A stretch of 57,710 bases of DNA from Kiritimatiellota bacterium (GTDB taxonomy: Bacteria > Verrucomicrobiota > Kiritimatiellia > Kiritimatiellales > Tichowtungiaceae), in NCBI GenBank assembly GCA_014381785.1, contig JACNKZ010000043.1, positions 1 through 57,710 of the forward strand, in the 5' to 3' direction. Positions 14,538 through 45,372 of this stretch are shown piece after piece; within the stretch, counting starts at the first letter, position 1, and every line of letters begins with the position of its first letter. The notes beneath the pieces were generated by a model. It was not told the DNA's origin, did not search any database, and was given only the letters and a program-made list of their open reading frames with translations. The translations under genes and the position numbers were made by a program.

Positions 14538-16571
14538 TTAGATGAAAAGCATGTCAGCATAGCTGGGCATCGGCCAGAGGTCGGCCGGAACGATGGCTTC
14601 AAGCGCATCAGCTGCGGCACGAACTTCGTTCATAGCGACGATCTGCGCTTTGGCACCTTCGGCAGCATCCAATTTCGCAACAGAGGCGACCAGCTTTTCG
14701 AGAAGGCTGGACATCTCAACCGCAATGCCGGCAACTGCCGCAACCGCAGAGTATTCCGTGATCGCGGTAACCGCGGCGGGAATAATCATGGTTTTGGCGA
14801 TGTCGGCGCAGGTGCCAGCTTCGATGGCAATGATCGTTTCGTAGCATTCCACGTAGGTGTTGTAGCGGGACTCGAGTTCTTCATTGCTCAGCACGTTATA
14901 CTTGGCGAAAAGATCTTTCGCTTTTTGCGAAGCCAGCGGCTCGAGGGCCTCTTCGCAATTGACCAGATTGGGCAGGCCGCGTTTGGCGGCTTCTGCTAAC
15001 CATTCGCCAGTGTAGCCGTCGCCGTTGAAGAGGATGCGTTTGTGCTCTTTAATGATTTCAGCGAGGATTTCCTGCAGAGCGGCATTGAACTCTTTGCCAT
15101 CGGCAACAGCGGCTTCCACCTTGGTGCAGATGTAGTCGAAGGCTTCGGCCACGATGGTGTTGAGCACGATGTTGGCTCCTGCAGGGCTCTGGTTGGAGCC
15201 AACAGCGCGGAACTCGAAACGATTACCGGTGAAGGCAAACGGTGAGGTGCGGTTGCGGTCGGTGTTACCCCGCGGCAGTTTCGGAAGCAGGTCAACGCCG
15301 AGCTCAATGTGGCCGCCGTCTTTGGAACTGCTGGCTCCACCGGCTTCGATCTGCTCAATCACATCGGTCAGGCAGTCGCCGAGGAAGATGGAAACAACAG
15401 CCGGCGGGGCTTCATTGGCACCGAGGCGGTGATCGTTACCCGCGGAGGCAACAGAAGCCCGGAGCAGGTCGGCATGGGTATCGACGGCTTTCATGAGCGC
15501 ACAGATAATGGTCATGAATTTGGCGTTGGCGTGCGGGGTGTCGCCCGGTTTCAGCCAGTTTTTACCATCCGGTCCCGTGATGGACCAGTTGTTGTGTTTA
15601 CCGGAACCATTGACGCCGGCGAACGGTTTTTCGTGCAGGAGGCAGGTGAACCCGTGCTTCTCAGCGAGGGTCTTCATGACTTCCATGGTGATCATGTTGT
15701 GGTCAACAGACACGTTGAGGGTTTCAAAGACCGGGGCCAGTTCGAACTGTGCGGGGCACACTTCGTTATGACGGGTTTTAGCCGGCACGCCGAGTTTCCA
15801 GAGTTCGCGGTCGAGATCAGCCATGTATGCGGCAACGCGAGGTTTAATGGCCCCGAAGTAGTGGTCGTCGAGCTGCTGGTGCTTGCTGGCCGGTTTGCCG
15901 AACAGAGTGCGGCCGGTCTGAATAAGGTCCGGACGGGCAGCATAAAGCTCTTCGTCGAGGAGGAAGTATTCCTGCTCAGAACCGAGGGTGGCTTTGGCCA
16001 TGGTGTCGCCGCAGTCGATGCCGAAGAGCTTGCCGAGGCGAACGGTCTGCTCGGAGAGCACTTTCATGGAGCGCAGGAGCGGAGTCTTTTTGTCGAGGGC
16101 TTCACCGTGGTATCCGCAAAAGACGGTCGGGATACAGAGCGTAGCCGCATCACTGGCATCATATTTGATGAAGGCCGGGCTAGTCGGATCCCAACCGGTG
16201 TAACCGCGGGCTTCGAAGGTGGCGCGCAGGCCGCCTGACGGGAAGGAGGAGGCATCCGGTTCACCTTGGATCAGTTCATCGCCGGAAAAGGCGGTAACAA
16301 TGCCACCTTTGAAGTCCGGGAAGATAAAGGAGTCGTGTTTTTCGGCAGTGGCGCCGGTGAGCGGCTGGAACCAATGGGTATAATGTGTGGCGCCTTTGCT
16401 CATGGCCCATTCTTTCATAGCTTCAGCAACTTCATCCGCAATGCTTGCGTCGAGCTGTTTTCCGCTATCGATGGTTTCTTTGAGTGATTTAAAGGTCGCA
16501 TCAGACAGATGCTCCTGCATTGCCTTCAACCCGAAGACGTTTTCCCCGAATATTTCCTTAGGATCAACCAT
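14538..16571 (-). CDS. glnN: Glutamine synthetase, type III
   Basis: This enzyme makes glutamine from glutamate, ammonium and ATP, the assimilation step behind the ammonium transporters at 29-34 kb. Its 677 residues fit GSIII rather than the 450-residue GSI. GSIII landmarks include the N-terminal FGENVFG, TGATAEKHDSF, RHNEVCPAQFE, GVNGSGKHNNWS (the ATP/glutamate loop) and NRTSPFAFTGNRFEFRAVGS. AAGGAGATT precedes the ATG. It is transcribed alone, with a strong terminator. The GSI adenylylation site is absent, as expected for the type, so control is probably transcriptional or by small proteins. Confidence 0.97.
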   Translation of the reverse strand: MVDPKEIFGENVFGLKAMQEHLSDATFKSLKETIDSGKQLDASIADEVAEAMKEWAMSKGATHYTHWFQPLTGATAEKHDSFIFPDFKGGIVTAFSGDELIQGEPDASSFPSGGLRATFEARGYTGWDPTSPAFIKYDASDAATLCIPTVFCGYHGEALDKKTPLLRSMKVLSEQTVRLGKLFGIDCGDTMAKATLGSEQEYFLLDEELYAARPDLIQTGRTLFGKPASKHQQLDDHYFGAIKPRVAAYMADLDRELWKLGVPAKTRHNEVCPAQFELAPVFETLNVSVDHNMITMEVMKTLAEKHGFTCLLHEKPFAGVNGSGKHNNWSITGPDGKNWLKPGDTPHANAKFMTIICALMKAVDTHADLLRASVASAGNDHRLGANEAPPAVVSIFLGDCLTDVIEQIEAGGASSSKDGGHIELGVDLLPKLPRGNTDRNRTSPFAFTGNRFEFRAVGSNQSPAGANIVLNTIVAEAFDYICTKVEAAVADGKEFNAALQEILAEIIKEHKRILFNGDGYTGEWLAEAAKRGLPNLVNCEEALEPLASQKAKDLFAKYNVLSNEELESRYNTYVECYETIIAIEAGTCADIAKTMIIPAAVTAITEYSAVAAVAGIAVEMSSLLEKLVASVAKLDAAEGAKAQIVAMNEVRAAADALEAIVPADLWPMPSYADMLFI

Positions 16572-29490: not shown

Positions 29491-30810
29491 TTACTGGGTT
29501 GTCCAGAGCTGGAAGCCGTTGTAGGCCTCTTCGCCGTGTTCGCCAATATCCAGACCGCGGAGTTCCTCTTCCGGAGAAACACGCAGAGCGCCCAGCTTCT
29601 TCAGGATGCTGAACAGGATAAACATAGTGACAAACGCCCAGATCGGAATAACAACCGAGCCGACAATCTGTGCAACCATCGGATGTCCACCGAAGATCCA
29701 GGTGGCCAGACCACCCCAGACTCCGCAAACACCGTGAACCGGGAAGGCTCCAACCGGGTCGTCGATTTTGAGCAGGTCGAGCATTTTAATGGCGAGAACA
29801 ACCAGGATACCGGCAATCACACCAATAACGATCGCTTCGACGTTGGTGACAGAGTCACAGTTGGCGGTAATACCGACCAGACCGGCCAAGATACCGTTGA
29901 GGGCCATCGTGAGGTCCGGTTTCTTATGTAGAATCCAGGTGGTGATCATGGCAAGGAATCCACCGGCGGCAGCGGCCAGCGTGGTGTTGACCGCGATCAA
30001 CATGACGGCGTTGGTGTTATCCGCACCGACAATGGCGAGCTGCGAACCGGGGTTGAATCCGTACCAGCCTACCCACAGGATGAATACACCCAGCGCGGCG
30101 AGCGGCAGGTTGTGCCCCGGCATCGCTTTGGATTTACCATCGGCAGTAAAGCGTCCGATACGCGGGCCGAGTACAATGGCACCGGCCAGACCGGCGAAAC
30201 CACCGACTGCGTGCACAACGAGCGAACCGGCGAAGTCATAGAAACCCATGGCATCGAGGAAGCCGCCGCCCCATTTCCAGAAACCGCTGATCGGATACAC
30301 CAGGCCGGTCAAAATGGCACTGTAGATCAGATAAGCAGAAAATTTAAGGCGCCCTGCCACCGCACCCGATACAATCGTTGCGGCCGTTGCAGCGAAGGCA
30401 ACCTGGAACAGGAAGTCACACTGCGGAGTCAGCGAACCGGCTGCCACGTCGCCGCCGATTCCGCCGATTCCCATGCCGCCCCAGCCCATAAAGCCGCCGA
30501 GGATCGCATCACCGTACATGATGCCGTATCCAAAAAGGAAGTACAGCAACACGCCGATACACAGGTCCATTACATTTTTAAACAGGATGTTCACCGCGTT
30601 TTTCGCGGAGTTGAATCCCGATTCCACCATCGCAAATCCCGGCTGCATAAAAATCACCAGAATCGCGCCCAACAGCAGAAACATATTGTCAATCGCGTAA
30701 CCGCTCTCCGCGGCCACGGTCTCTGCTGTCACTACTTCGTCGGCATGCACCGGAATGGCCAGACAAGCCAGCACCGCCAATACACCCATTATACGTATCA
30801 TCTTCTTCAT
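29491..30810 (-). CDS. amt: Ammonium transporter (copy 1)
   Basis: This 439-residue Amt channel has a cleavable signal peptide (MKKMIRIMGVLAVLACLAIP) and eleven membrane helices. Pore residues are visible: FQVAFAATAATIVSGAVAGR, the first pore histidine in YDFAGSLVVHAVGG, and the second in PVHGVCGVWGGLATWIFGG. The signature DFAGSxVVHxxGG confirms the family. The C-terminal tail EEELRGLDIGEHGEEAYNG is the P-II docking segment. It precedes glnB1 and porin1. It is clearly diverged from amt2 although the two P-II proteins are nearly the same. Confidence 0.96.
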   Translation of the reverse strand: MKKMIRIMGVLAVLACLAIPVHADEVVTAETVAAESGYAIDNMFLLLGAILVIFMQPGFAMVESGFNSAKNAVNILFKNVMDLCIGVLLYFLFGYGIMYGDAILGGFMGWGGMGIGGIGGDVAAGSLTPQCDFLFQVAFAATAATIVSGAVAGRLKFSAYLIYSAILTGLVYPISGFWKWGGGFLDAMGFYDFAGSLVVHAVGGFAGLAGAIVLGPRIGRFTADGKSKAMPGHNLPLAALGVFILWVGWYGFNPGSQLAIVGADNTNAVMLIAVNTTLAAAAGGFLAMITTWILHKKPDLTMALNGILAGLVGITANCDSVTNVEAIVIGVIAGILVVLAIKMLDLLKIDDPVGAFPVHGVCGVWGGLATWIFGGHPMVAQIVGSVVIPIWAFVTMFILFSILKKLGALRVSPEEELRGLDIGEHGEEAYNGFQLWTTQ

Positions 30811-32467: not shown

Positions 32468-33790
32468 TTAGCTGTTGGTGAAGAACTGGAATCCACTATA
32501 GGCCTCCATACCGTGCTCGCCGATGTCGAGCCCCTTGAGCTCTTCCTCTTCGCTGACGCGAATACCGATAGTGCTCTTGAGAATGAACATGATCAGGAAG
32601 GCGGCCGGGAAGCAGAATGCACCATACGCCAAGACCCCGAGCGCCTGCACACCAAGCGTGTAGTCCGGGCTGAACACGCCGACAAACAGCGTTCCGAGAA
32701 TCCCGCAGACCAGATGGACGGTGGTCGCACCGACCGGGTCGTCAATCTTGAGCTTGTCAAACATCATAACGGAAACCACAGCAACCGTGCCGCAGATCAG
32801 GCCGATTAAAATCGAAGCAGAAACCGAAACCACGTCCGCGCCGGCGGTGATTCCGACCAGGCCGGCCAAACAGCCGTTGAGCACCATGGTGAGGTCCGGT
32901 TTTTTCTGGATCGTCCACGTGGCCATCATTGAGCCGATAATACCAGCCGCCGCAGCCATGGAGGTGGTGACGAGCACGTAGGATACGCCGCCCGGATCGC
33001 CGGAAAGCACAGAACCTCCGTTGAAACCGAACCAGCCGAGCCACAGCAGGAATACCCCGATGGTGACCAGCGGCATGTTGTGGCCCATGATCGCTTTAGT
33101 CCGGCCGTTAACATATTTACCGAGGCGCGGGCCGAGCAGTATGACTGAGGCCAGTGCACCCCATCCGCCGACCGAGTGAACCAGCGTAGAACCGGCGAAG
33201 TCGTGGAAGTTCATTTCTGCAAGCCAGCCGCCGCCCCAGACCCAGGAACCGACGAACGGGTAGACGATCGCAACATAGATTGCGGAGAAGATCAGGAACG
33301 AAGGCAGTTTGATGCGCTCAGCTACCGCACCGGAAACGATGGTGGCCGCTGTGGCCGCAAACATGCCCTGAAACAGGAAGTCGGTCCAGTAGGAGTAGGC
33401 TCCGCCGGCATAATCAATCAAACCGGCCGCGCCTTCGGGAGCCACCACGCCGAATCCGGCAAAACCGAAAATACCTGAGATGATGTTGAAATCACCCGGG
33501 TACATCAGGTTGAACCCGATCAGCGCGTAAGTCAGCAGACCGATCGCAACAATCGCGGTGTTTTTAAACAGAATATTAACGGTATTTTTAGCGCGCGTCA
33601 GACCGGTTTCCACCGTGGCAAAACCCAGATGCATGATAAACACCAGGAAGATGGAAACCATCATCCAGATATTATTGGCCGTAAACATGGCATCGGCAGC
33701 CGTTACAGCCGGCTCCGCCTCTTCCGCAAAGGCTCCTGCTCCGAGCGCCAGAACGGCCGCCATCAGCAGTGCTTTTTTCCATACTTTCAT
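32468..33790 (-). CDS. amt: Ammonium transporter (copy 2)
   Basis: This 440-residue Amt has a signal peptide (MKVWKKALLMAAVLALGAGA). The pore histidines lie in HDFAGSTLVHSVGG and TVHLVCGILG; FQGMFAATAATIVSGAVAER and the P-II docking tail EEELKGLDIGEHGMEAY are also seen. The start at 33790 has AAAGGAGAAG upstream; an in-frame earlier start would add 14 polar residues before the signal peptide. Its periplasmic loops differ strongly from those of amt1, so affinities may differ. Confidence 0.96.
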   Translation of the reverse strand: MKVWKKALLMAAVLALGAGAFAEEAEPAVTAADAMFTANNIWMMVSIFLVFIMHLGFATVETGLTRAKNTVNILFKNTAIVAIGLLTYALIGFNLMYPGDFNIISGIFGFAGFGVVAPEGAAGLIDYAGGAYSYWTDFLFQGMFAATAATIVSGAVAERIKLPSFLIFSAIYVAIVYPFVGSWVWGGGWLAEMNFHDFAGSTLVHSVGGWGALASVILLGPRLGKYVNGRTKAIMGHNMPLVTIGVFLLWLGWFGFNGGSVLSGDPGGVSYVLVTTSMAAAAGIIGSMMATWTIQKKPDLTMVLNGCLAGLVGITAGADVVSVSASILIGLICGTVAVVSVMMFDKLKIDDPVGATTVHLVCGILGTLFVGVFSPDYTLGVQALGVLAYGAFCFPAAFLIMFILKSTIGIRVSEEEELKGLDIGEHGMEAYSGFQFFTNS

Positions 33791-33943
33791 AACTTCTCCT
33801 TTAGGTTGAACATCCAAACCCGCCTCTGTCACCGGCGATATGGTCTCCCTTTAAGCACGAAATAGGCCAAAGAAATTATTCAGAAAAGCTGAAAACGTAA
33901 AACGTTTATAATAATGAGTTTGCAGAATAAACGCGCCAGACCC

Positions 33944-33984: not shown

Positions 33985-36228
33985 TTATGTATTATTTAAA
34001 AATGATTCCACTTCAGAAATCCGACTCAACTCCAGCATCTGACGGGCGGCATAAACCGCTTTTTGCATGCTGACCGCTTCTATGGCCTGCTGAATCTCAA
34101 CCATCTGCCGGGGAGAAATACTGATCTTTCGAATTCCGACTCCCAGCAAAAAAGGAATCATTTTGGGGTCGCGCGCAATATCGCCGCAGATCGACACATC
34201 TTTGCGGTGGTTGCGCGCCACCGATACCACGCGGTCAATCGCCCGCAAAATGGCCGGATGATGGGAGAGGTAAAGGCTGGAAACCATCTCATTGGTCCGG
34301 TCAACCGCCAGCATATACTGAATCAGATCATTGGTTCCGATCGACATAAAGTCGACTTCATGGGCCAAGTCTTCGACCAGCACCACCGCCGACGGTAGCT
34401 CGATCATCACGCCGAGCTGGGTGTCACGGTTGTATTCCACTCCGCGCTGGTCCAGCTCGCCCATACACTGCTTCACCAACTCCCGCGCCTCCACAAACTC
34501 GTCCACCGAGGAAATCAGCGGGAACATGATCCGGGAGTGCCCGCCGACACCGGCGCGCAGCATGGCGCGCAGTTGTTCAGCAAACACCTCTTTGTTTTTG
34601 AGCAGAAACCGGATTCCGCGCAGACCGAGGAACGGATTGGCCTCCTCCACCTCATCCTGATAGGAAAGCAGCTTATCGCCGCCGATATCCAACGCGCGGA
34701 AGGTCACCTCGCGCTCGCCCATCGCCTCCACAATGCGGCTGTACACCCGATACTGCTCCTCTTCCGAAGGGAAATCGTTACGGATAATAAACGGAAATTC
34801 ACTGCGATAGAGGCCGACCCCCTCTGCGTTGAACTTATCCGCCAGCTTCAGATCACTGAGCAGGTTGATATTGGCGAACAACTGAATGCGGGTGCCGTCG
34901 GCCGTATGGCTCTCCGGATTCATCGGCGGAGCCGCCTCCAGCGCGTCGGCCCGGCGCTGATGTTTGACGTACTCCTTCAACACCTCCTCCGACGGCTGGA
35001 TATAAACCGTCCCCGCGGAACCATCGATCAGCAATTCACAGGATTCCGTGAACAGATCGAACTGCTGCGCATCCACCATCACCATCGGTTTCTGCAGTGA
35101 GCGGCAGATAATGGCGATGTGTGAGGTCATACCGCCCTGCACCACAAAGCCCTCCGCCTTTTCCGTGGCCAGCTTGAGCACGTCGGACGGCAGCAGCGAA
35201 TCGGCCAGAATAATCTGCCCGGTATAGTCTCCGGGCGCACGCTCTCCGCCAATCAGGTTTTCCATCAGACGATGGCCGAGGTCTTTGAGGTCGTGCACCT
35301 TCTCCTGCAGGCGCGGGTTCGGGCTGGCCGAAAAAATATCAATATAGCGGTTCACCACATCCACCAGCGCATCGGCAGGATGGATTCCCTCCTGAATCTG
35401 CCGACGGATCGCGCCGGAAAACTCGTCATCGGCCAGAATCAGTAAATGGGCACTGAAAATCAGCTGCGCCACGTCCGACAAAGTCACGGCGGCCTCGCGC
35501 TGCAGGTCCGCCAGCTGCTGCTCACTGGCTTTCAGCGCGCGCTCAAAATCGTCCAGCGTTAACTCATCCGGTGTCGATTCATGCTTGCGGAAACGGCCGG
35601 CGCGACCCGAGACCACCATACTGCCGATCCCGCGCGCCACACCGCTGCTGCCCGACCGGCCCTTAATCATCTTGCTCACCGGAGTCACCTGCACCGGTCG
35701 CACATCCTCCTGCCGGTGCAGCGCCATCAGCAGATCCGCGTTTTCAATCACCGTGGCCAGCTGGCCGGCAATCGCGCGCAGCGCCTGCTCGTCTGCGCCA
35801 TCAAAATAATCCGCCTCGGTGTCCTGCACCGTCAGCACCCCGACGCGCTTGAGCTGCCGGCGGATCGGCACCGCCAGAAACGCCTGATACTTCTCCTCGC
35901 CAATCCCATCCACCGGCTCAAAACTCGGACTTTTCGAGGCGCACCCCGTACAGATCGACCGCAGCTCCTTCAGCGCCAGCCCGGCAATCCCCTGCCCGAG
36001 GCGCAGCTGAACCTTACCCACCGCATCGGCGCTAAGCCCCTGCGTGGCGCGCAGCGTCAGCATCCGGCTGGCGTCATCATAAATATAGATCGAACAGACC
36101 GCCGCCTGCATGTGGTAGGCCACCGTGCTGACGGCCGCCTGCAGAAAATCATCCAGGCTGTTGCTCTTCTCAAACAGAGAGGTCAGTTCCGCCACATCAC
36201 AGATCATATTGACATTTGCTTTTCCCAT
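33985..36228 (-). CDS. ptsP: Phosphoenolpyruvate-protein phosphotransferase PtsP (EI-Ntr)
   Basis: Enzyme I of the nitrogen phosphotransferase system passes phosphate from PEP to NPr. The 747-residue protein has an N-terminal GAF domain (about residues 15-165), then PEP-utilising domains. The phosphohistidine is in VVQGGMTSHIAIICRSLQKP; the TIM barrel follows (LFANINLLSDLKLADKFNAE, GVGLYRSEFPF, MSIGTNDLIQY), with the catalytic cysteine in SICGDIARDP. GAF domains of EI-Ntr bind glutamine or 2-oxoglutarate. It is directly upstream of amt2 on the same strand. NPr and EIIA-Ntr are not in the window. Confidence 0.93.
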   Translation of the reverse strand: MGKANVNMICDVAELTSLFEKSNSLDDFLQAAVSTVAYHMQAAVCSIYIYDDASRMLTLRATQGLSADAVGKVQLRLGQGIAGLALKELRSICTGCASKSPSFEPVDGIGEEKYQAFLAVPIRRQLKRVGVLTVQDTEADYFDGADEQALRAIAGQLATVIENADLLMALHRQEDVRPVQVTPVSKMIKGRSGSSGVARGIGSMVVSGRAGRFRKHESTPDELTLDDFERALKASEQQLADLQREAAVTLSDVAQLIFSAHLLILADDEFSGAIRRQIQEGIHPADALVDVVNRYIDIFSASPNPRLQEKVHDLKDLGHRLMENLIGGERAPGDYTGQIILADSLLPSDVLKLATEKAEGFVVQGGMTSHIAIICRSLQKPMVMVDAQQFDLFTESCELLIDGSAGTVYIQPSEEVLKEYVKHQRRADALEAAPPMNPESHTADGTRIQLFANINLLSDLKLADKFNAEGVGLYRSEFPFIIRNDFPSEEEQYRVYSRIVEAMGEREVTFRALDIGGDKLLSYQDEVEEANPFLGLRGIRFLLKNKEVFAEQLRAMLRAGVGGHSRIMFPLISSVDEFVEARELVKQCMGELDQRGVEYNRDTQLGVMIELPSAVVLVEDLAHEVDFMSIGTNDLIQYMLAVDRTNEMVSSLYLSHHPAILRAIDRVVSVARNHRKDVSICGDIARDPKMIPFLLGVGIRKISISPRQMVEIQQAIEAVSMQKAVYAARQMLELSRISEVESFLNNT

Positions 36229-36546: not shown

Positions 36547-39500
36547 ATGAAAAAATCCATTCGCATCCTGTTGCTGTTTTTTTTGGTTTTCGGTTCGGGC
36601 CTGAGCTTCAGCCAGACGCTGCGCTCAGCCGCCGAGCCGAACTACCCGCCGTTTTCTATAGTCAACCCGGATGGCAGTGCAGACGGATTTGCGGTTGAAC
36701 TGCTGCGGGCGGCGCTGTCTGAAGTAAACCGGAAGGCCTCTTTTCAAACCGCCCCGTGGAATCAGATCAAAAATGAGCTGGCCGCGGACGAGCTGGATGT
36801 TCTGCCGCTGGTGGGCCGCACACCCGAACGGGAAGTGCTGTTCGATTTCACGTTTCCTTATCTGACCCTGCACGGTGCGCTGTTTGTCCGGAACGACGAA
36901 ACTGCGATTCAGAGCCTGTCCGATCTGCCCGGAAAAAAGATCGCGGTGATGACGGGCGACAACGCGGAGGAGTATGTGCTGCGCGCAAAACTTTCCGATC
37001 AGATCATCAGCACAACCACCTTTGAAGAGGCCTTCAACCTGCTCTCGTCCGGTGAAGCTGACGCTGTGATTGCGCAAAAACTGATGGGCGTTTCTCTGCT
37101 TAAACAACTCGATATCCGCAATATCAAGGTGGTCGGGAAACCGAACGAGGAATTTAAGCAGGATTTCTGTTTCGCCGTTACCGAAGGCAATGCGGAACTG
37201 CTCGCCGAACTCAACGAGGGGCTGGCGATTGTTGTGGCCAGCGGAACGCATCGCCGCCTCATGAACAAATGGCTTGGCGCGGGTGAAGCCATCGCCGCGC
37301 GCTCACGGGTTCTGCTTTACGGCGATGACCCGACCTATCCGCCCTATATGTTTCTCGATGAACAGGGGCAGCCCGCCGGCTTCCATGTCGAATTACTTCA
37401 GGCGATTGCTGAAAAAACCGGCATCGAGATTGCCTTCCGGCCTGACCCCTGGAGTGAAGTCCAACGCAAAATGATGGACGGCGAACTGGATATCACCAGT
37501 ATGCTCTATACGCCGGAACGGGATCAGGTCCTGGACTTCTCTCTGCCGCATTCGGTGATGTATGCGTCGGTCTTCACCCGAACCGGAGCCCCGTCCTATG
37601 CCGCCGCCGACCTGAAAGGTCACCGCATCGCAGTTCAAAAGGGCGATATGCTGAATGAATATGCACTGGCGCAGGGTTGGGGAGACACGCTGACCGTCGC
37701 GGAAAGCGAGGAAGAGTCGCTGGCTCTGCTGGCGGATAGAAAAGTGGATTTTGTCCTGGGCTATCATATCCCGGGGCTTTACTGGATTCATAAAAACGGC
37801 TGGGACAATATACGCGAAGCCGAGCCCCGCCTGATGAAGGCGGAATACTGTTTTGCTGTTCAAAAAGGAGATAGCGAACTGCTGCACCTCCTCGACAACG
37901 GTCTGCGGCAACTGCAGGAAACCGGAGAATACAAAACAATTTATAATAAATGGCTGGGCGCTTTCGACGATACGCCACGCCCCCTTCCCGTCTGGTTCTG
38001 GACTATCGCCTATGGAATCGGCAGCGCGACGATCCTGCTGTTCGGAATCAACCGCCTGCTCAAACACCAGATTGAAAAACGCACCGCCGAGCTGCGCGCC
38101 AGCGAAGAAATGATGCGCAACTCGCAATCTGTGGCGCATATCTGCTCTTATTCAACCACTCTGAACGTGGACGAAATCGAGAAGAGCCAATGGGCGTGCT
38201 CACCGGAATTTTACAAAATATTCGGGATCGACGAAACCTATCCGCACACCATAGAGAGTTGGGCGGGCTTTATTCATCCGGACTTCCTCGATGAAGTGAC
38301 TGCGTGCCACGAATCGGTCATAAAAGAGAAAACCTCTTTTGACAAGGAATATAAAATCATCCGGATTGACGACGGCGCGGAACGCTGGGTTCACGGCACA
38401 GGCGAACTCGAATTTGATAAAGAAGGAACCCCCATCCGAATGCATGGGGCCATACAGGACATCACCGAACGCAAACAGGCTCAGCAGGAGCTGGAGGAAT
38501 CCCGTCAGCTGCTGCACAACATCATCGACACCATTCCTGATCGCGTGTGGTGGAAAGATCTCGACTCCCGCTATTTGGGCTGCAACATCCATGTTGCGCA
38601 GGATGCCGGCCTCGACCATCCGGATCAGCTGATCGGCAAAACCGACTTTGACATGATCTGGGCAGATGAGGCGGAGAGGTTTATAGCCAACGACCGCAGC
38701 GTGATCGAATCCGGCATGCCAAGGTTCACCGATGATCGGCTTCAGGTGCTAGCAGACGGCACGACCCGTTGGATTAACGTCAGCCAGTTCCCTCTCAAAG
38801 ATACGAACGGGGAAATCATCGGCACGCTGAGCACCTATATCGACGTTACAGAACGAAACCAGGCTCAGCAGGCGGTGGAGGAGGCTCGTCAACTGCTGAG
38901 CAACATCATCGACACCATGCCTCAACGCGTGTGGTGGAAAGATCTTAACTCCCGCTACATGGGCTGCAACATCCTTGTTGCGCAGGATGCCGGCTTCGAC
39001 CATCCGGATCAGCTGATCGGCAAAACCGACTTTGACATGCCCTGGGCAGAGCATGCGGAGACGTTTATAGCCAGCGACCGCGAGGTGATCGAATCCGGTG
39101 AACCGAGGCTCTACGAGCCTGAGCGTCAGGTTCTGGAAGACGGCAGCATCCGTTGGATTGAAGTCAGCATAGTCCCTCTCAAAGATACGGCCGGGAAGAT
39201 CTTCGGCGTGATGGGAGCCTATGCCGACATCACAGACCGCAAACTGGCTCAACTGGCGCTGGAGGAGTCTCGTCAGCTGCTGTACAACATCATCGACACC
39301 TTGCCTAACCGCGTGTGGTGGAAAGATCTCGACTCCCGCTACATAGGCTGCAACATCCTTGTTGCGCAGGATGCCGGCCTCGACCATCCGGATCAGATGA
39401 TCGGCAAAACCGACTTTGACATGCCTTGGGCAGAGCAGGCGGAGGCGTTTATAGCCAATGATCGCAAAGTGATCGAATCCGGTATGCCGAGACTCTACGA

Positions 39501-42099
39501 TGATGAGTGTCAGGTTCTGCCCGACGGCAGTACCCGTTGGATTAACGTCAGTCAGTTCCCTCTCAAAGATACGACCGGGAAGATCATCGGCACGCTGAAC
39601 ACCTATGCCGACATCACCGAGCGCAAACGGATGCAGGAAGCGATTGAAAAACAGATCCTCGCTCTAACCCGCCCGCTGGAAGGCGGCGAAGACATTACAT
39701 TCGAACAGCTGTTCAACCTGAAAGATATCCAGCGCATTCAGGACGAGTTCTCGGATGCGACAGGAACGGCGGCTCTCATCCTCCGTCCCGACGGAACCCC
39801 CATCACCGAACCCAGCAACTTTATCGATCTATGCAAACTGATCCGGGCAACGGAAAAAGGGTGCGCCAAGTGCCTGAAATCAGACAAAGCCATCGGAGCA
39901 CGCCACCCCGGCGGACCTCTCATTCAACCCTGTATGAGCGCTGGGCTCTGGGATGCTGGCTCAAACATTATGGTCGGCGGCAAGCACATTGCCAGTTGGC
40001 TGATCGGTCAGGTGCGCGACGAAACCCAGACCGAAGACCAGATGCGGGCTTACGCCAGAGAAATCGATATGGATGAAACGGTCTTTATTGAAGCCTTCCG
40101 CAACGTTCCCGCCATGCCGCGCGAAAAATTTGAAAAAATCGCACAGGCGCTGTCCACCCTTGCCAATCAGCTCTCCACCTCCGCCTATCAGAACATGCAG
40201 CAGGCCCGTTTTATTTCCGACCAAAAGAAAACCGAACAATCCCTGCGGGAAAGCGAAGAACGATTTAAATCCCTGCATGACGCATCCTTTGGAGGGATCG
40301 CAATTCACGACAACGGGATTATTCTGGAATGCAATCACGGCTTATCGATCATCACCGGCTATTCAGAAGAAGAATTGATCGGCATGAACGGCGTGACGGA
40401 GCTGATCGCGGAAGACTCGCGCGACGTGGTCATGGACAGGATTCAGGCTGGCGATGAAAAACCGTATGAGGCAACCGGGCTGCGTAAGAACGGGGAGACA
40501 TACCCCGTGCGAGTGGAAGCCAGGAACGTTCTCTACAAAGGCAAACGGGTTCGGACGGTCGAGTTCAGAGACATCACCGAGCGCAAAAAAACCGAAGAGG
40601 AACTGCGGCGTCTGTCCACCGCTATCGAACAATCTCCGGAAACAGTGATGATTACCGACATCAAGGGAACCATTCAGTATGTGAACCCGGCGTTCACCAC
40701 CATCACCGGCTACACGCGCGAAGAGGCCCTCGGGCAGAATCCACGCATCCTAAAAAGCCGAGCACACGACGAGGCATTTTATGCCGCCATGTGGAAACGC
40801 CTGCTCGCCGGACAAATCTGGGAGGGACGGATTGTCAATAAACGCAAAGACGGCTCCCTCTTCACCGAGGAGGCCTCCTTTGCGCCGGTTAAGGATCCAA
40901 ATGGGGACGTCACCAATTTTGTTGCGGTTAAGCGCGATATCACCAAAGAGCTGCTGCGGGAAGAGCAGATGCAGCAGGTTCAGAAAATGGAAGCCGTCGG
41001 TCAATTGGCGGGGGGCATCGCTCACGACTTCAACAACATTCTACAGGCCATCCTCGGCTTCAGCGAACTGCTTCTGATGACTCTTGATGAGCGCGCAGAA
41101 CAACCGCGAAACAATGTACTCGAAATTCAGAAAGCCGCCCAGCATGCCGCAGACCTGACGCGGCAGCTTCTGGCCTTCAGCCGCAAACAAAATGTTGACT
41201 TTAAACCGGTCAACCTGAACGACGCCATTCGGAACACGCTCAGTTTCGCCAAAAGCATTATCGGTGAAGCCATTGAGATCAAAACCGATCTTGAACCGAA
41301 ACTAAATCTGGTTGAAGCCGACTCCCGACAGATGGAGCGAACCATTCTGAACCTGGTTCTCAACGCCCGCGACGCCATGCCGCAGGGGGGGGTGCTGACG
41401 CTCAAGACAGAAAATATATGTTTCCTGGCAGAAGATGCCACGGCCTCTATTCAAGAAGGAGAGTTTGCCTGCCTGATCATCAGTGACACCGGCACCGGAA
41501 TCCAATCCGACATCATCGAGCATATTTTTGAACCGTTTTTCAGTACCAAACCCCCGGGACAGGGAACCGGACTGGGACTCGCCGCTATTTACGGGATTAT
41601 TCAGGATCACAAAGGCTGGATTGATGTCTATAGCGAACCGGGCCGGGGAACGACCTTCAAAATGTATCTGCCGACGCACCGGTGCCGTTCGCCACGCGAA
41701 GCGACAAAACCCGCACGCCACGAAACAGGCCACGGCGAGCGAATCCTCGTTGTCGAAAATGATGCCGCCACCCAGATTTTATCCAAAAACACCCTGCAAA
41801 AAGCGGGATATGTCGTTACGGTCACGTCAACTGCTGAAGAGGCCGAGATCCTTTTTGACAAAGAAAATGGACGGTTTGACCTGTTGTTCAGTGATGTGAT
41901 TCTGCCGGGTAAAACCGGGACCGATCTGGCCGCCGCCCTGCTCCAAAAAAATCTGAACCTCAAGGTTTTGCTCTGCAGCGGCCACCCGGTCAATCGCATT
42001 AAAAGTTCGACGGTAGGCCGGAATAATCTCTTTTTCCTTGAAAAACCGTTTTCCATTGTCAACCTGTTACATCTGGTCAATCAAATATTAAAAGGTTAA
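36547..42099 (+). CDS. Hybrid sensor histidine kinase: two SBP_bac_3, six PAS, PocR-like domain, HisKA, HATPase, receiver
   Basis: The 1850-residue membrane sensor begins with a signal sequence and two periplasmic family 3 binding domains (about 24-240 and 254-475; EPNYPPFSIVNPDG and DDPTYPPYMFLDEQG). One helix follows (about 481-503). Inside are a PAS domain (518-645), three near-identical PAS copies (about 650-777, 778-905, 906-1033; each with VWWKDL.SRY.GCNI), a PocR-like domain (about 1051-1200, with cysteines in GCAKC and QPCM), two more PAS (about 1235-1470), HisKA with the phospho-acceptor His1493 in GGIAHDFNN, HATPase_c, and a receiver with Asp1783. Family 3 binding domains usually bind amino acids or polyamines. 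The CheY-like gene 24 bases downstream is the likely partner. Confidence 0.93.
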   Translation: MKKSIRILLLFFLVFGSGLSFSQTLRSAAEPNYPPFSIVNPDGSADGFAVELLRAALSEVNRKASFQTAPWNQIKNELAADELDVLPLVGRTPEREVLFDFTFPYLTLHGALFVRNDETAIQSLSDLPGKKIAVMTGDNAEEYVLRAKLSDQIISTTTFEEAFNLLSSGEADAVIAQKLMGVSLLKQLDIRNIKVVGKPNEEFKQDFCFAVTEGNAELLAELNEGLAIVVASGTHRRLMNKWLGAGEAIAARSRVLLYGDDPTYPPYMFLDEQGQPAGFHVELLQAIAEKTGIEIAFRPDPWSEVQRKMMDGELDITSMLYTPERDQVLDFSLPHSVMYASVFTRTGAPSYAAADLKGHRIAVQKGDMLNEYALAQGWGDTLTVAESEEESLALLADRKVDFVLGYHIPGLYWIHKNGWDNIREAEPRLMKAEYCFAVQKGDSELLHLLDNGLRQLQETGEYKTIYNKWLGAFDDTPRPLPVWFWTIAYGIGSATILLFGINRLLKHQIEKRTAELRASEEMMRNSQSVAHICSYSTTLNVDEIEKSQWACSPEFYKIFGIDETYPHTIESWAGFIHPDFLDEVTACHESVIKEKTSFDKEYKIIRIDDGAERWVHGTGELEFDKEGTPIRMHGAIQDITERKQAQQELEESRQLLHNIIDTIPDRVWWKDLDSRYLGCNIHVAQDAGLDHPDQLIGKTDFDMIWADEAERFIANDRSVIESGMPRFTDDRLQVLADGTTRWINVSQFPLKDTNGEIIGTLSTYIDVTERNQAQQAVEEARQLLSNIIDTMPQRVWWKDLNSRYMGCNILVAQDAGFDHPDQLIGKTDFDMPWAEHAETFIASDREVIESGEPRLYEPERQVLEDGSIRWIEVSIVPLKDTAGKIFGVMGAYADITDRKLAQLALEESRQLLYNIIDTLPNRVWWKDLDSRYIGCNILVAQDAGLDHPDQMIGKTDFDMPWAEQAEAFIANDRKVIESGMPRLYDDECQVLPDGSTRWINVSQFPLKDTTGKIIGTLNTYADITERKRMQEAIEKQILALTRPLEGGEDITFEQLFNLKDIQRIQDEFSDATGTAALILRPDGTPITEPSNFIDLCKLIRATEKGCAKCLKSDKAIGARHPGGPLIQPCMSAGLWDAGSNIMVGGKHIASWLIGQVRDETQTEDQMRAYAREIDMDETVFIEAFRNVPAMPREKFEKIAQALSTLANQLSTSAYQNMQQARFISDQKKTEQSLRESEERFKSLHDASFGGIAIHDNGIILECNHGLSIITGYSEEELIGMNGVTELIAEDSRDVVMDRIQAGDEKPYEATGLRKNGETYPVRVEARNVLYKGKRVRTVEFRDITERKKTEEELRRLSTAIEQSPETVMITDIKGTIQYVNPAFTTITGYTREEALGQNPRILKSRAHDEAFYAAMWKRLLAGQIWEGRIVNKRKDGSLFTEEASFAPVKDPNGDVTNFVAVKRDITKELLREEQMQQVQKMEAVGQLAGGIAHDFNNILQAILGFSELLLMTLDERAEQPRNNVLEIQKAAQHAADLTRQLLAFSRKQNVDFKPVNLNDAIRNTLSFAKSIIGEAIEIKTDLEPKLNLVEADSRQMERTILNLVLNARDAMPQGGVLTLKTENICFLAEDATASIQEGEFACLIISDTGTGIQSDIIEHIFEPFFSTKPPGQGTGLGLAAIYGIIQDHKGWIDVYSEPGRGTTFKMYLPTHRCRSPREATKPARHETGHGERILVVENDAATQILSKNTLQKAGYVVTVTSTAEEAEILFDKENGRFDLLFSDVILPGKTGTDLAAALLQKNLNLKVLLCSGHPVNRIKSSTVGRNNLFFLEKPFSIVNLLHLVNQILKG
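38494..39645 (+). repeat. Three tandem 384-bp repeats encoding PAS domains
   Basis: Units start at about 38494, 38878 and 39262. Each encodes 128 residues with the same core (LLxNIIDTxPxRVWWKDL, then AQDAGxDHPDQxIGKTDFDM). Long stretches match at DNA level, showing recent in-frame duplication. Confidence 0.85.
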
Positions 42100-42509: not shown

Positions 42510-43472
42510 TCAATTCTCAGAGAAAACCGGTTTAGTTTCGAAATAGATTTTGTCAGCCTGCGGACAGATGGTGACCCGGTAATTCTGCAGCAGACGCGCG
42601 CCAATGCGCACCTCTCCCGGCAACACCGAAACCGCCGGATTCGAAAACGAAAAATTCTCTCCGAGCTGCAGCATAGAAACCCCGCCCCCCGAAGAAGCAG
42701 CCACCTCAAAGTCTCCGGCCGGATCGATCAGAATGACCCCGTCTTGCCCGTCCACCGTCCCGCGCACTGCGCAGACGCCGGCATACTTCACCAGCGGAAG
42801 TTCAGCCACAACCAACGCGGGGTTGGGCTCATACGCCTCCGTTGTCTTCAACACGACATGCCCCACAGAATATACAAACTGAATCTGCTCCAACTTCTGT
42901 AAAATATTCCATCCCACAACCCCCCTCAAAACCGGCTCCTCAATTTCCCGGGCCGCCGGGCCGAGCGGCCCGTTTGCCAGTCGAACATAGACCAGCGGGC
43001 TCTCCACAAACAGCTGCCCCAGCCGAAGAGACGGAATCAGCGACAAGCAAGATGGAATCTCATCGCCCGGGCGTGTCGCCAGCTTCGGCACCCGCTGCTC
43101 CCCGACCGCCAAGGCGCCGGCTTTTCGTGCCGTATTGAATTCCATCAGGCTCGCGGAAGACGCGCAATCCAGCAACACCGGCCACTGCACGCCGAAATTC
43201 CCATGCAGATTCACCACCGGCCGGAACGGTTCGTCTACCAACATCGGCAACGCCTCTGCCTGCGCAGGATGCAACCGGCCGCCGCCGCGAATCTCCACCC
43301 CGGACGGGGTCTGGTAAATTCCCAGCCCGAAAACACGCGGGTCACGCACTTTCCTCAGATACGCCTGCTGTTCTTCCCATGAGACCGGCGTTGTTTTTTC
43401 CGGCTCAGTCGTTTTGCAGCCCGCCAGCATCAACAGGACAGATGTCAGTATAAAAACGATCCGTTTTTTCAT
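42510..43472 (-). CDS. Lipoprotein with two retropepsin-like lobes lacking the active site
   Basis: The 320-residue lipoprotein (signal peptide with lipobox LAGC, Cys19) contains two segments shaped like aspartyl-protease lobes. The first is WPVLLDCASSASLMEFN; the second is GVILIDPAGDFEVAAS. The catalytic D-T/S-G triads are DCA and DPA, so proteolysis looks unlikely. The loop VLRGVVGWNILQKL is the counterpart of the psi-loop region (GxxGxxxL). It may be a binding protein built on the fold. It converges with the CheY-like gene five bases away. I am fairly sure of the gene and lipoprotein nature, less of the fold. Confidence 0.6.
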   Translation of the reverse strand: MKKRIVFILTSVLLMLAGCKTTEPEKTTPVSWEEQQAYLRKVRDPRVFGLGIYQTPSGVEIRGGGRLHPAQAEALPMLVDEPFRPVVNLHGNFGVQWPVLLDCASSASLMEFNTARKAGALAVGEQRVPKLATRPGDEIPSCLSLIPSLRLGQLFVESPLVYVRLANGPLGPAAREIEEPVLRGVVGWNILQKLEQIQFVYSVGHVVLKTTEAYEPNPALVVAELPLVKYAGVCAVRGTVDGQDGVILIDPAGDFEVAASSGGGVSMLQLGENFSFSNPAVSVLPGEVRIGARLLQNYRVTICPQADKIYFETKPVFSEN

Positions 43473-43674
43473 AAGTTTCTCCCTTTTTCTGCCAAACGAC
43501 AGAGTGAACCATTCCGCATATCATGGCGTGCCTCACAGGCGGAGCCAACCTCAAAGATTCAATACAAAGACCCTTTACACACAGAAAGACCGCCAGCCCG
43601 GCAACATTTATTCTTTTGCTGTCGAAACCGCTATCGTTATTTCTTACACTGCAATCTCCGGAGGCTACCATATT

Positions 43675-45372
43675 ATGGATGAAAAAAACGATGAGTGTTG
43701 CAGCACTGAAATGATGCAGGCACTGAGCAGTTTCGGAAAAATGCTCAGTATCGCCTCCATCTACGGGATGAACCACCCGTCCATTGCCACTCCTCTGGAA
43801 GAGGCGCGCCGCAGCCTGTGCGACGCGCTGGAAAAAGATGAAATGGTGATGCTCGGTCTGTTCAACAAAACCCTGACCATCAACGACAAAATGCTCACCG
43901 AGTATACGGTTCACCTGCGGGCCCTGGAGCGGCGGTTTATTGCCCTCGATGTTCCCCATCTCGTTTTTCGAAAAGGAGTATCTACAGAAGAACTGGGCCA
44001 ACTGCTCGACGCGCTGTGTTCGTCTGGCGGTGGAGCACACATGCCGATCAAAGAACGGCTCGATGCCGCCGGTCTGGTAAATATCAAGGCCGATAAGGTT
44101 CAATATGTGGCGCAGCACGAAGGGCAGCGCCTTGTCGGCGACGGCGACGGCCCGGGAGACGGTCTGGAAGACGGCGCCAACGCCGGCGCCGGGGTCTTCT
44201 CCAAAAAAGGAGCCGAAGAAGCAGAAAAAGAAGCGCCCCCCGAAGAGCCGGAAGAAGAAATAAAAAAAAACCCGGAGCCGACCATCAAGGTTGAACAGAT
44301 TGTCGCCTTCCTTAAAGGAGCGCCGGGCGCAACGGACACGCCGGGCGACGACCTGCAGGAACTGGTTGCCGACCCCGAGAAGCTCGGCCAGCTCATCATG
44401 GAATCCGCCGACATCCGGCAATCCGCCCAGTCGATAGACCAGGGCGAATCGCTGGCCGACATCGTGATCGGGTGTCTGCGCAAAACCTACGACGGTCTGC
44501 ACGAGCAGAGAAAATATAAGTCCCCAACGGGCAAAGCGAACCTTCACAAAGCCATGCTTCTGCTCGAAAAAACCGTCGTCGACAAAATCCGCAATGCCGT
44601 TGGAGAAGAACAGCCGGAAATCGACGCACATATTCTCGAAGCCCTGCGCGAGGCCGAAGAACAGCGGCAGGTGGAAATCCTCGCCGCGCGCTTTGTTGAG
44701 CAGCAGAAAAAAATCACCAAAGTGGAGATGGATATCCTCCGCTACGTCCGCGAATACGGCGAAGAAAAAGCCCGGCAGATGCTCAGCTCATCGGAAATTC
44801 CGGAGGAGGAATGGAACCGTCTGATGATCCAGAACCGCCGCTCCGGCGGTTCGGGTGACGGAGAAGGCGGCGGCCCGGGCGGCGGCGGCAATGGCGGAAG
44901 TGGAGAAGGCCTCGATATGGGCGCACTGGCGATCGTGCTCGATAAGCTCGAAACCATTATGGACCTCGACGACATCCCGCCCGAAATCATCAAAAGCACG
45001 GTTGAAGAGGTGCGGGAAACGGTTGAAGAGACCGCTGCACAGGCGACCAAACAAGTCGAATCACTGGAAGAACAGGTTGAGCAGCATGAAGAAGATGTCG
45101 GCAAACCGCCCGAAGCCCGCAAGAGTAAAAAGAGCCGGGCCGAACTCCTGAGCGAACTCGCCAATCTTGCGCTCACGCTGTCTCAACCCCTGACGGTCAT
45201 CACCGTATCCATTGAAGCCGCCCTGAAGGACAGCACGCCGCCGGATATCCGCAAAGAGGTGTTGGAGCTCGCCTGCGAAAGCGGACAGCGCATGAAAGAA
45301 CTGATGAAACGACTGACCCAGCTGGTGGGCTACCCCTCCATGAAAGTCGCCGACGCGGGGATTGAGGAATAA
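43675..45372 (+). CDS. Cytoplasmic protein with a C-terminal HisKA-like helix pair lacking histidine
   Basis: The 565-residue soluble protein starts at ATG 43675 with GGAGG upstream. The N-terminal 140 residues (SIYGMNHPSIATPLEEARRS, then ALERRFIALDVPHLVFRKGV) resemble helical modules linked to bacterial signalling. A charged linker and a glycine-rich stretch (about residues 388-414) follow, then a coiled coil (about 445-485). The end (ELANLALTLSQPLTVITVSI) matches the H-box of QPL-type histidine kinases, but Thr stands where the histidine should be and no ATPase domain follows. It may dimerise with, or bind, a partner in phosphotransfer. Function unknown. Confidence 0.65.
   Translation: MDEKNDECCSTEMMQALSSFGKMLSIASIYGMNHPSIATPLEEARRSLCDALEKDEMVMLGLFNKTLTINDKMLTEYTVHLRALERRFIALDVPHLVFRKGVSTEELGQLLDALCSSGGGAHMPIKERLDAAGLVNIKADKVQYVAQHEGQRLVGDGDGPGDGLEDGANAGAGVFSKKGAEEAEKEAPPEEPEEEIKKNPEPTIKVEQIVAFLKGAPGATDTPGDDLQELVADPEKLGQLIMESADIRQSAQSIDQGESLADIVIGCLRKTYDGLHEQRKYKSPTGKANLHKAMLLLEKTVVDKIRNAVGEEQPEIDAHILEALREAEEQRQVEILAARFVEQQKKITKVEMDILRYVREYGEEKARQMLSSSEIPEEEWNRLMIQNRRSGGSGDGEGGGPGGGGNGGSGEGLDMGALAIVLDKLETIMDLDDIPPEIIKSTVEEVRETVEETAAQATKQVESLEEQVEQHEEDVGKPPEARKSKKSRAELLSELANLALTLSQPLTVITVSIEAALKDSTPPDIRKEVLELACESGQRMKELMKRLTQLVGYPSMKVADAGIEE

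Follow-up and report, generated by a model that had tools for sequence, protein, structure and literature searches.

A BvgS-type hybrid kinase of a Kiritimatiellota bacterium with a variable sensing half and a triplicated VqmA-type PAS unit that lacks the family lysine

Both large hybrid kinases rich in sensory domains and the shuffling of domains among kinases are known, and there is, to our knowledge, no settled explanation for the long PAS chains of many bacterial kinases. The kinase described here bears on that question, as the number of PAS units, the likely order of events and a residue of the binding pocket can all be compared. The closest described system is the BvgS family, with which the kinase has in common tandem Venus flytrap (VFT) domains before a membrane helix, a cytoplasmic PAS, HisKA/HATPase domains and a C-terminal receiver. 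Passages of PMC4352136 describe one to five VFTs and varied domain compositions among predicted BvgS homologues, a Geobacter VFT that is closed without ligand, and a membrane-proximal VFT that is probably closed in the BvgS family; as for the PAS of BvgS, the portion of PMC5829827 that deals with it reports no evidence for signal perception and suggests a transmission-only role. Two further systems are related to single domains of the kinase. VqmA is a DNA-binding regulator with a PAS, of which F67, F99 and K101 are given as critical for DPO binding in an extract of PMC10426928, and the kinase repeats this type of PAS within a membrane protein. The PocR domain is predicted to sense simple hydrocarbon derivatives, according to excerpts of PMC1592074 and PMC5847659. 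The kinase itself is fairly ordinary; what makes it of interest is that its triplicated unit lacks the lysine and that its conserved core carries a variable sensing half.

The window, that is, the whole stretch of 57,710 nucleotides that was analysed, belongs to a genome of 2.22 Mb in 88 contigs that is 98% complete, and a single open reading frame of 1850 residues with an ATG start exactly fills positions 36547-42099 (Table 1). The Pfam scan of the product placed two SBP_bac_3 domains, PAS_3/PAS_4/PAS_9, PocR, HisKA, HATPase_c and Response_reg, all of them intact and scoring above the Pfam cut-offs. These results bear out the initial annotation, made from the letters alone, of a hybrid kinase with dual binding domains, and the Pfam search that it had proposed (SBP_bac_3, PAS, PocR, HisKA) located every domain named. 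Its triplicated PAS was right as to three repeated units and fell short of the PAS total of about six, which comprises one domain before the triplet, the triplet and two domains after PocR. Judged from its sequence, the protein is a very large yet recognisable bacterial sensor kinase of BvgS-type (VFT-domain) hybrid architecture.

Table 1. Features of the kinase and its two downstream neighbours, with positions numbered from the first letter of the window.
Feature	Residues	Positions	Strand	Remark	Basis
Hybrid sensor histidine kinase	1850 aa	36547..42099	+		ORF, Pfam
N-terminal hydrophobic segment	1-23	36547..36615	+	signal peptide or first membrane anchor	hydropathy
VFT1 (SBP_bac_3)	24-246	36616..37284	+	Arg95 kept, Gln177 at amine-Asp position	
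VFT2 (SBP_bac_3)	253-475	37303..37971	+	Arg325 kept, Tyr406 at amine-Asp position	
Probable membrane helix	483-505	37993..38061	+	WFWTIAYGIGSATILLFGINRLL	read from sequence
PAS0 (PAS_3)	549-635	38191..38451	+		Pfam
Amplified VqmA-type PAS unit 1	638-765	38458..38841	+	Gln747 at VqmA K101 position	
Amplified VqmA-type PAS unit 2	766-893	38842..39225	+	Ile875 at VqmA K101 position	
Amplified VqmA-type PAS unit 3	894-1021	39226..39609	+	Gln1003 at VqmA K101 position	
PocR domain	1055-1214	39709..40188	+		Pfam, alignment, model
PASa	about 1222-1345	40210..40581	+		further Pfam PAS stretches and sequence reading
PASb	1346-1470	40582..40956	+	present in 9/9 related kinases compared	Pfam
HisKA	1485-1549	40999..41193	+	phospho-acceptor His1493 in IAHDFNN	by eye (His1493)
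HATPase_c	1592-1710	41320..41676	+		Pfam
C-terminal receiver	1733-1844	41743..42078	+	Asp1783 in FSDVILP	by eye (Asp1783)
Stand-alone receiver	126 aa	42124..42504	+	directly after kinase	Pfam; synteny
Gene P	320 aa	42510..43472	-	putative lipoprotein (LAGC by eye), convergent	ORF; synteny

The likeness to the BvgS family rests on VFTs that precede a membrane helix and a histidine kinase, the helix being read from the sequence and falling below the 19-residue hydropathy cuts. Unlike the family, the kinase has about six PAS domains plus PocR, and no HPt domain was found in its Pfam scan, so that of the receiver and HPt phosphorelay that BvgS unites in one protein only the receiver is present; two Hpt matches occur elsewhere in the focal genome. 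Moreover, a separate single receiver adjoins the kinase here, in place of the HTH regulator described for BvgA. Among solved chains, the VFT region matches the sensor protein 3h7m (E 2.2e-45) and BvgS (4q0c, E 2.7e-19); VFT2 aligns with 3h7m along its length (E 1.3e-45), and the match of VFT1 is 4zv1, an ancestral Gln/Arg binder (2.1e-29). The chain closest to VFT2, 3h7m, has Ala at the position of the amine-contacting Asp and holds one VFT, and the comparison covers that chain only. In the amino-acid binders of SBP family 3, an Arg presumably contacts the carboxylate and an Asp the amine. Alignments to 4zv1 indicate that both VFTs of the kinase retain the Arg (Arg95, Arg325) and that the Asp is replaced in both, by Gln177 in VFT1 and by Tyr406 in VFT2, so that the residue pair of an amino-acid binder is present by half. 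The focal genome holds two SBP_bac_3 matches at E 0.001 or better, both in this kinase, and no free SBP_bac_3 binding protein was found in its 2.2 Mb (98% complete).

PF10114 sits between the PAS domains of the kinase; PocR itself is, we presume, a regulator carrying this domain, unlike the hybrid kinase. The match is full-length and reaches 172.9 bits against a cut-off of 23.9, which rules out a false call, and it includes the motifs GCAKC (from residue 1105) and QPCM (from residue 1127) by which the PocR-like domain had originally been recognised; the domain search, on whose failure to place PocR the early reading had been staked, placed it at E 5.7e-51. All 18 aligned PocR domains, including three from short open frames of 290-395 aa, share Cys1096, Cys1109 and Cys1129, and Cys1106 is partially conserved in an alignment of 15 rows, 14 of them distinct because one repeats the focal sequence. 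No solved PocR relative was found by sequence in the PDB. The model of the domain (pLDDT 93.4) matches many IclR, GAF and roadblock-like folds, with Z of 8.1-10.5 among the best 50, the top matches being of IclR type with scores that differ by about one Z at most, and Foldseek places CodY best at 9.3e-4. A pocket for a small molecule would be in keeping with this predicted likeness to GAF folds and to the effector domains of IclR. As regards the cysteines, no paper linking them to an iron-sulfur role appeared among the best 15 of 1,983 literature matches, and a kinase with VFT and PocR together appeared neither among the best 15 of 29 matches of one literature search nor among the four of another.

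The three direct repeats start at 38458, 38842 and 39226, with spacings of 384/384 nt, and the 384-nt register across three copies rules out a chance repeat. Over 384 nt, the unit pairs are 81.5, 86.5 and 84.9% identical in DNA and 70, 80 and 74% identical in amino acids, as expected from the initial annotation, which had called the 384-base units alike at the DNA level. Between units, dS is 0.19-0.25 and dN is 0.12-0.21, a ratio that rests on few sites; dS is lower in mid-unit (0.10-0.13), which may reflect gene conversion, and for the C-terminal half two of the three unit pairs show a dN close to dS or higher, the third pair a dN of half of dS. In a tree of 114 unit rows, 111 of them different, the focal units form one clade (100/99) in which units 1 and 3 are sisters (100/84), and the sister relation of the outer units, with the middle one apart, points away from simple serial copying and towards unequal crossing-over or conversion. 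The unit profile, run over 97 genomes, listed matches of 115 bits or more in 49 open frames, of which 44 have one such unit, four have two and one, the focal kinase, has three. Since relatives have at most two strong units and the focal units are monophyletic, the amplification appears to be lineage-specific; it is also in-frame and, as the divergences support, not very young. The annotated "recent in-frame amplification" therefore stands as a lineage-specific event, while "recent" has to be read as a dS of about 0.19-0.25 and not as strain-level; a fixed number of PAS copies in relatives, which was to speak against the amplification, is not what was found, unit number being variable. A frame with four related-type PAS units, which cluster in the tree and of which the best pair is 42% identical, was also found (L111, genome G002) and may reflect a similar amplification of greater age.

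Among solved structures, the PAS of VqmA matches the unit best (phmmer E 1.2e-7 with unit 3, 7e-5 with unit 2). The model of unit 3, built from a 36-row alignment (pLDDT 94.9), has VqmA as its top Foldseek match (E 7.1e-11; rmsd 1.6 over 116 columns), and a second structural comparison of the same model gives VqmA entries at Z 17.3, 17.1 and 17.0 and the next protein at 14.4. The VqmA PAS structures compared were 6ide, 6ugl and 6kju, and 6ide_B aligns with the model at Z 17.3 over 131 residues (28% identity, rmsd 4.3). As modelled, the unit is more similar to VqmA than to other PAS domains, and it is in this sense of the predicted fold that it is called VqmA-type. The position of K101, assigned by counting residue numbers in the phmmer alignment, holds Lys in all 81 distinct non-focal units that score 110 bits or more, a set in which Legionella loci are over-represented; the peptide patterns that collected the PAS loci omit this position, and the conservation of the Lys is not a product of the scan. 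Among 27 weaker units (80-110 bits), the position is occupied by Lys in 13, Ala in six, Gly in five, Arg in two and Val in one, and a profile made without the focal rows retrieves Lys in 33 of 34 distinct non-focal units and Gln in the other, this set overlapping partly with that of 81. Conversely, the focal units have Gln747, Ile875 and Gln1003 there. Two residues earlier, at the position of F99, they have Val against the usual Thr/Ser, and the position of F67 is Phe in all three, so that a VqmA-like DPO receptor is matched at F67 and departed from at F99 (Val) and K101 (Gln/Ile/Gln). Because the Lys is absent from all three copies, its loss most simply preceded the amplification. Together with the Asp missing from the VFTs, the missing Lys suggests that some "sensors" of this kinase may be transmitters or may bind something else. 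The early picture of two outside and several inside sensors consequently survives in its domains, while its assumption of ligand binding is weakened by the lack of the amine Asp and the PAS Lys; its proposal that the kinase combines a solute signal from outside with a metabolite signal from inside is plausible.

The Lys-bearing VqmA-type PAS is also found in Legionellaceae (Legionella, Tatlockia; among L035-L061), in which many loci have it in tandem pairs near the start of open frames of mostly about 820 aa.

Kinase, stand-alone receiver and gene P are on one contig in eight of 14 genomes of the genus, namely the focal genome G000 and the comparison genomes G003, G007, G008, G009, G010, G012 and G013, one genome representing each species. 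Of the others, G004 showed no receiver between its kinase and P, G002 combines receiver and P with the end of a kinase at the contig border, the P of G006 is on a different contig from its kinase and receiver, G001 and G011 have P without a kinase on the examined stretch, and G005 has no P. Gene P, thus present in 13 of 14 and next to both kinase and receiver in eight, has a lipoprotein-like N-terminus (MKKRIVFILTSVLLMLAGCK, by eye), matches no Pfam family at E 0.001 and is possibly a partner of the kinase. Nine relatives were compared in detail, the seven other syntenic genomes plus G004 and G006, and are 50-71% identical to the focal kinase in the HK part and 54-65% in PASb; the kinase's own receiver is in eight of them and absent from the G012 frame. 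VFTs occur in G013 alone of the nine, with none in the uncut kinases of G003, G006, G007, G008, G009 and G010, the frames of G004 and G012 being cut at a contig end with their N-termini missing. The sensing half consists of three VFTs, PAS and PocR in G013, 5TM-5TMR_LYT, PAS and PocR in G003, hydrophobic segments at 37 and 224, PAS and PocR in G008, hydrophobic segments and PAS in G010, CHASE and PAS in G007, and PAS only, with neither VFT nor PocR, in G009. PAS only is likewise found in the 673-aa kinase of G006, PAS in the frame of G012 that runs off the contig end, and a CHASE cut by the contig end in G004. Stop to stop, the seven uncut syntenic kinases span 989-1982 aa, the focal one 1863, against 577-647 aa in 11 rows of 10 genomes for another kinase family taken as a rough control with orthology assumed. 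As far as these alignments and domain assignments indicate, related genomes keep a conserved signalling end at one place while the sensing end varies, a contrast that was out of reach of the initial annotation.

The modules of the kinase differ in their nearest kin. The kinase-core tree, with one starred branch of seven, joins the focal genome to G009 (100/100), as does the tree of gene P (96/92), and the two trees are in weak conflict over G010. The PocR tree (163 columns; nine of 12 inner branches open) joins it instead to G020, which is of another family (98/99), and the VFT pair, present at E 1e-40 or better in four of 43 genomes of the order (G000, G013, G012, G015), is absent from G009 and closest in G013 (61%). 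These different relationships fit an exchange of sensing modules, and both exchange and differential loss appear possible. Composition gives no sign of recent foreign origin, since GC3 ranges between 54 and 72% along the gene with no break between the sensing and kinase halves. The related kinase of G013 is 67% identical to the focal one in VFT1, 66% in PocR and 63% in PASb, and has one strong PAS unit, which bears the Lys and is 47-51% identical to the focal units. Its third VFT (L117, G013:C32) is most like VFT2 (49%, against 54% for its second VFT), so VFT number varies too, with more outer domains in G013 and more inner units in the focal kinase. The same locus sets one strong Lys-bearing unit beside three Lys-less ones on related cores.

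As a whole, the locus is best explained by a BvgS-type kinase with a variable sensing half and a triplication of a PAS that lacks the family lysine, an account that we hold to be probable and in which each ligand and phosphotransfer step is one that we infer. The two VFTs would lie in the periplasm and would relay whether they are open or closed through the membrane helix and along the helically linked PAS series; PocR, with its predicted IclR/GAF-like fold and conserved cysteines, would add an internal small-organic or redox input above PASb, which would switch the kinase. His1493 would then phosphorylate Asp1783, and the signal would reach the stand-alone receiver either directly or via an HPt protein from another locus. 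In the amplified units, the ancestral contact to a ligand had most likely gone before they multiplied, and they would now be transmission or length modules, or binders of something else; the PAS of BvgS, for which no perceived signal is reported in the relevant part of PMC5829827, offers a precedent for ligand-blind units. The sensing half was most likely assembled by module exchange or shuffling at helical linkers, and differential loss of VFT and PocR would also yield the patchy pattern. A bolder version, which we put forward tentatively and consider rather doubtful, is that of a sensor socket, in which a core of PASb and kinase, together with the receiver and the lipoprotein-like partner, would have its sensing halves swapped between species at helical linkers, an already lysine-less PAS unit being then amplified into ligand-blind modules that set the length or gain of the signal path.

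The lysine is also where this account parts from a reading in which all input domains are working sensors, the VFTs of an outside solute and the PAS units and PocR of internal metabolites, with integration of the two. Its domains are intact and above the Pfam cut-offs, the PocR model resembles ligand-binding IclR effector domains at a Z of about 10, and the F67 position is Phe in all three units; however, the Lys is missing from each of them, Val takes the place of the usual Thr/Ser two residues earlier, and the amine Asp is missing from both VFTs, which together with the PAS of BvgS, without a found signal in the text quoted from PMC5829827, and the membrane-proximal VFT, thought closed in that of PMC4352136, makes the reading unlikely. 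If the Lys was lost, the PAS units may instead have been re-specialised for a new ligand, with tripling and fast amino-acid change tuning dose or specificity. Several conserved positions did change together (EE to DR/PE/DE, T to V, K to Q/I), two of three unit pairs have a dN close to dS or higher in the C-terminal half, and identity to the G013 unit is 47-51%, where VFT1, PocR and PASb reach 63-67%; yet relaxed constraint predicts the same pattern, dN is half of dS in the third comparison and the candidate ligand is only hypothetical, for which reasons we regard re-specialisation as possible and rather improbable.

The origin of the sensing half leaves room for descent without exchange, if the VFT-PAS-PocR half were ancestral at the locus and had been lost separately in G009, G010, G007 and others. 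The absence of a compositional break and the order VFT-PAS-PocR-PASb-HK-REC-REC2-P of G013, which is on the other branch of the core tree and has the same order as the focal locus, speak for such an ancestry, and we give it appreciable weight, if somewhat below an even chance, as the VFT pair is found in only four of 43 genomes, PocR groups with G020 of another family (98/99), and the 5TMR-LYT of G003 and the CHASE of G007 are different sensors and not remnants. The repeat or the mosaic might lastly be an artefact of a draft genome in 88 contigs. The units differ by 13-19% and hence are not one unit assembled three times, the reading frame is open throughout, and the downstream genes are collinear with those of G009, which is a single 3.88-Mb contig, and of other genomes; on the divergence of the units and the collinear neighbours, an artefact was rejected as extremely improbable. 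The natural variety of sensing halves also supplies ready-made parts for testing how far a sensor can be swapped on one kinase.

The surroundings of the kinase include a nitrogen-related neighbourhood (14538-16571, 29491-30810, 32468-33832 and 33985-36228) with genes for a type III glutamine synthetase, two ammonium transporters and a GAF-bearing PEP-utilising enzyme (PtsP-like), the last divergent from the kinase. A conserved upstream neighbourhood with PtsP was ruled out, as relatives with both genes have them on different contigs or far apart (0.83 against 2.19 Mb in G009). On the other side, a long open frame on the + strand (43414-45372) codes for a glycine-rich region and a weak HisKA-like stretch (20.6 bits, below the cut-off), and its counterpart in G009, 58% identical, also adjoins gene P.
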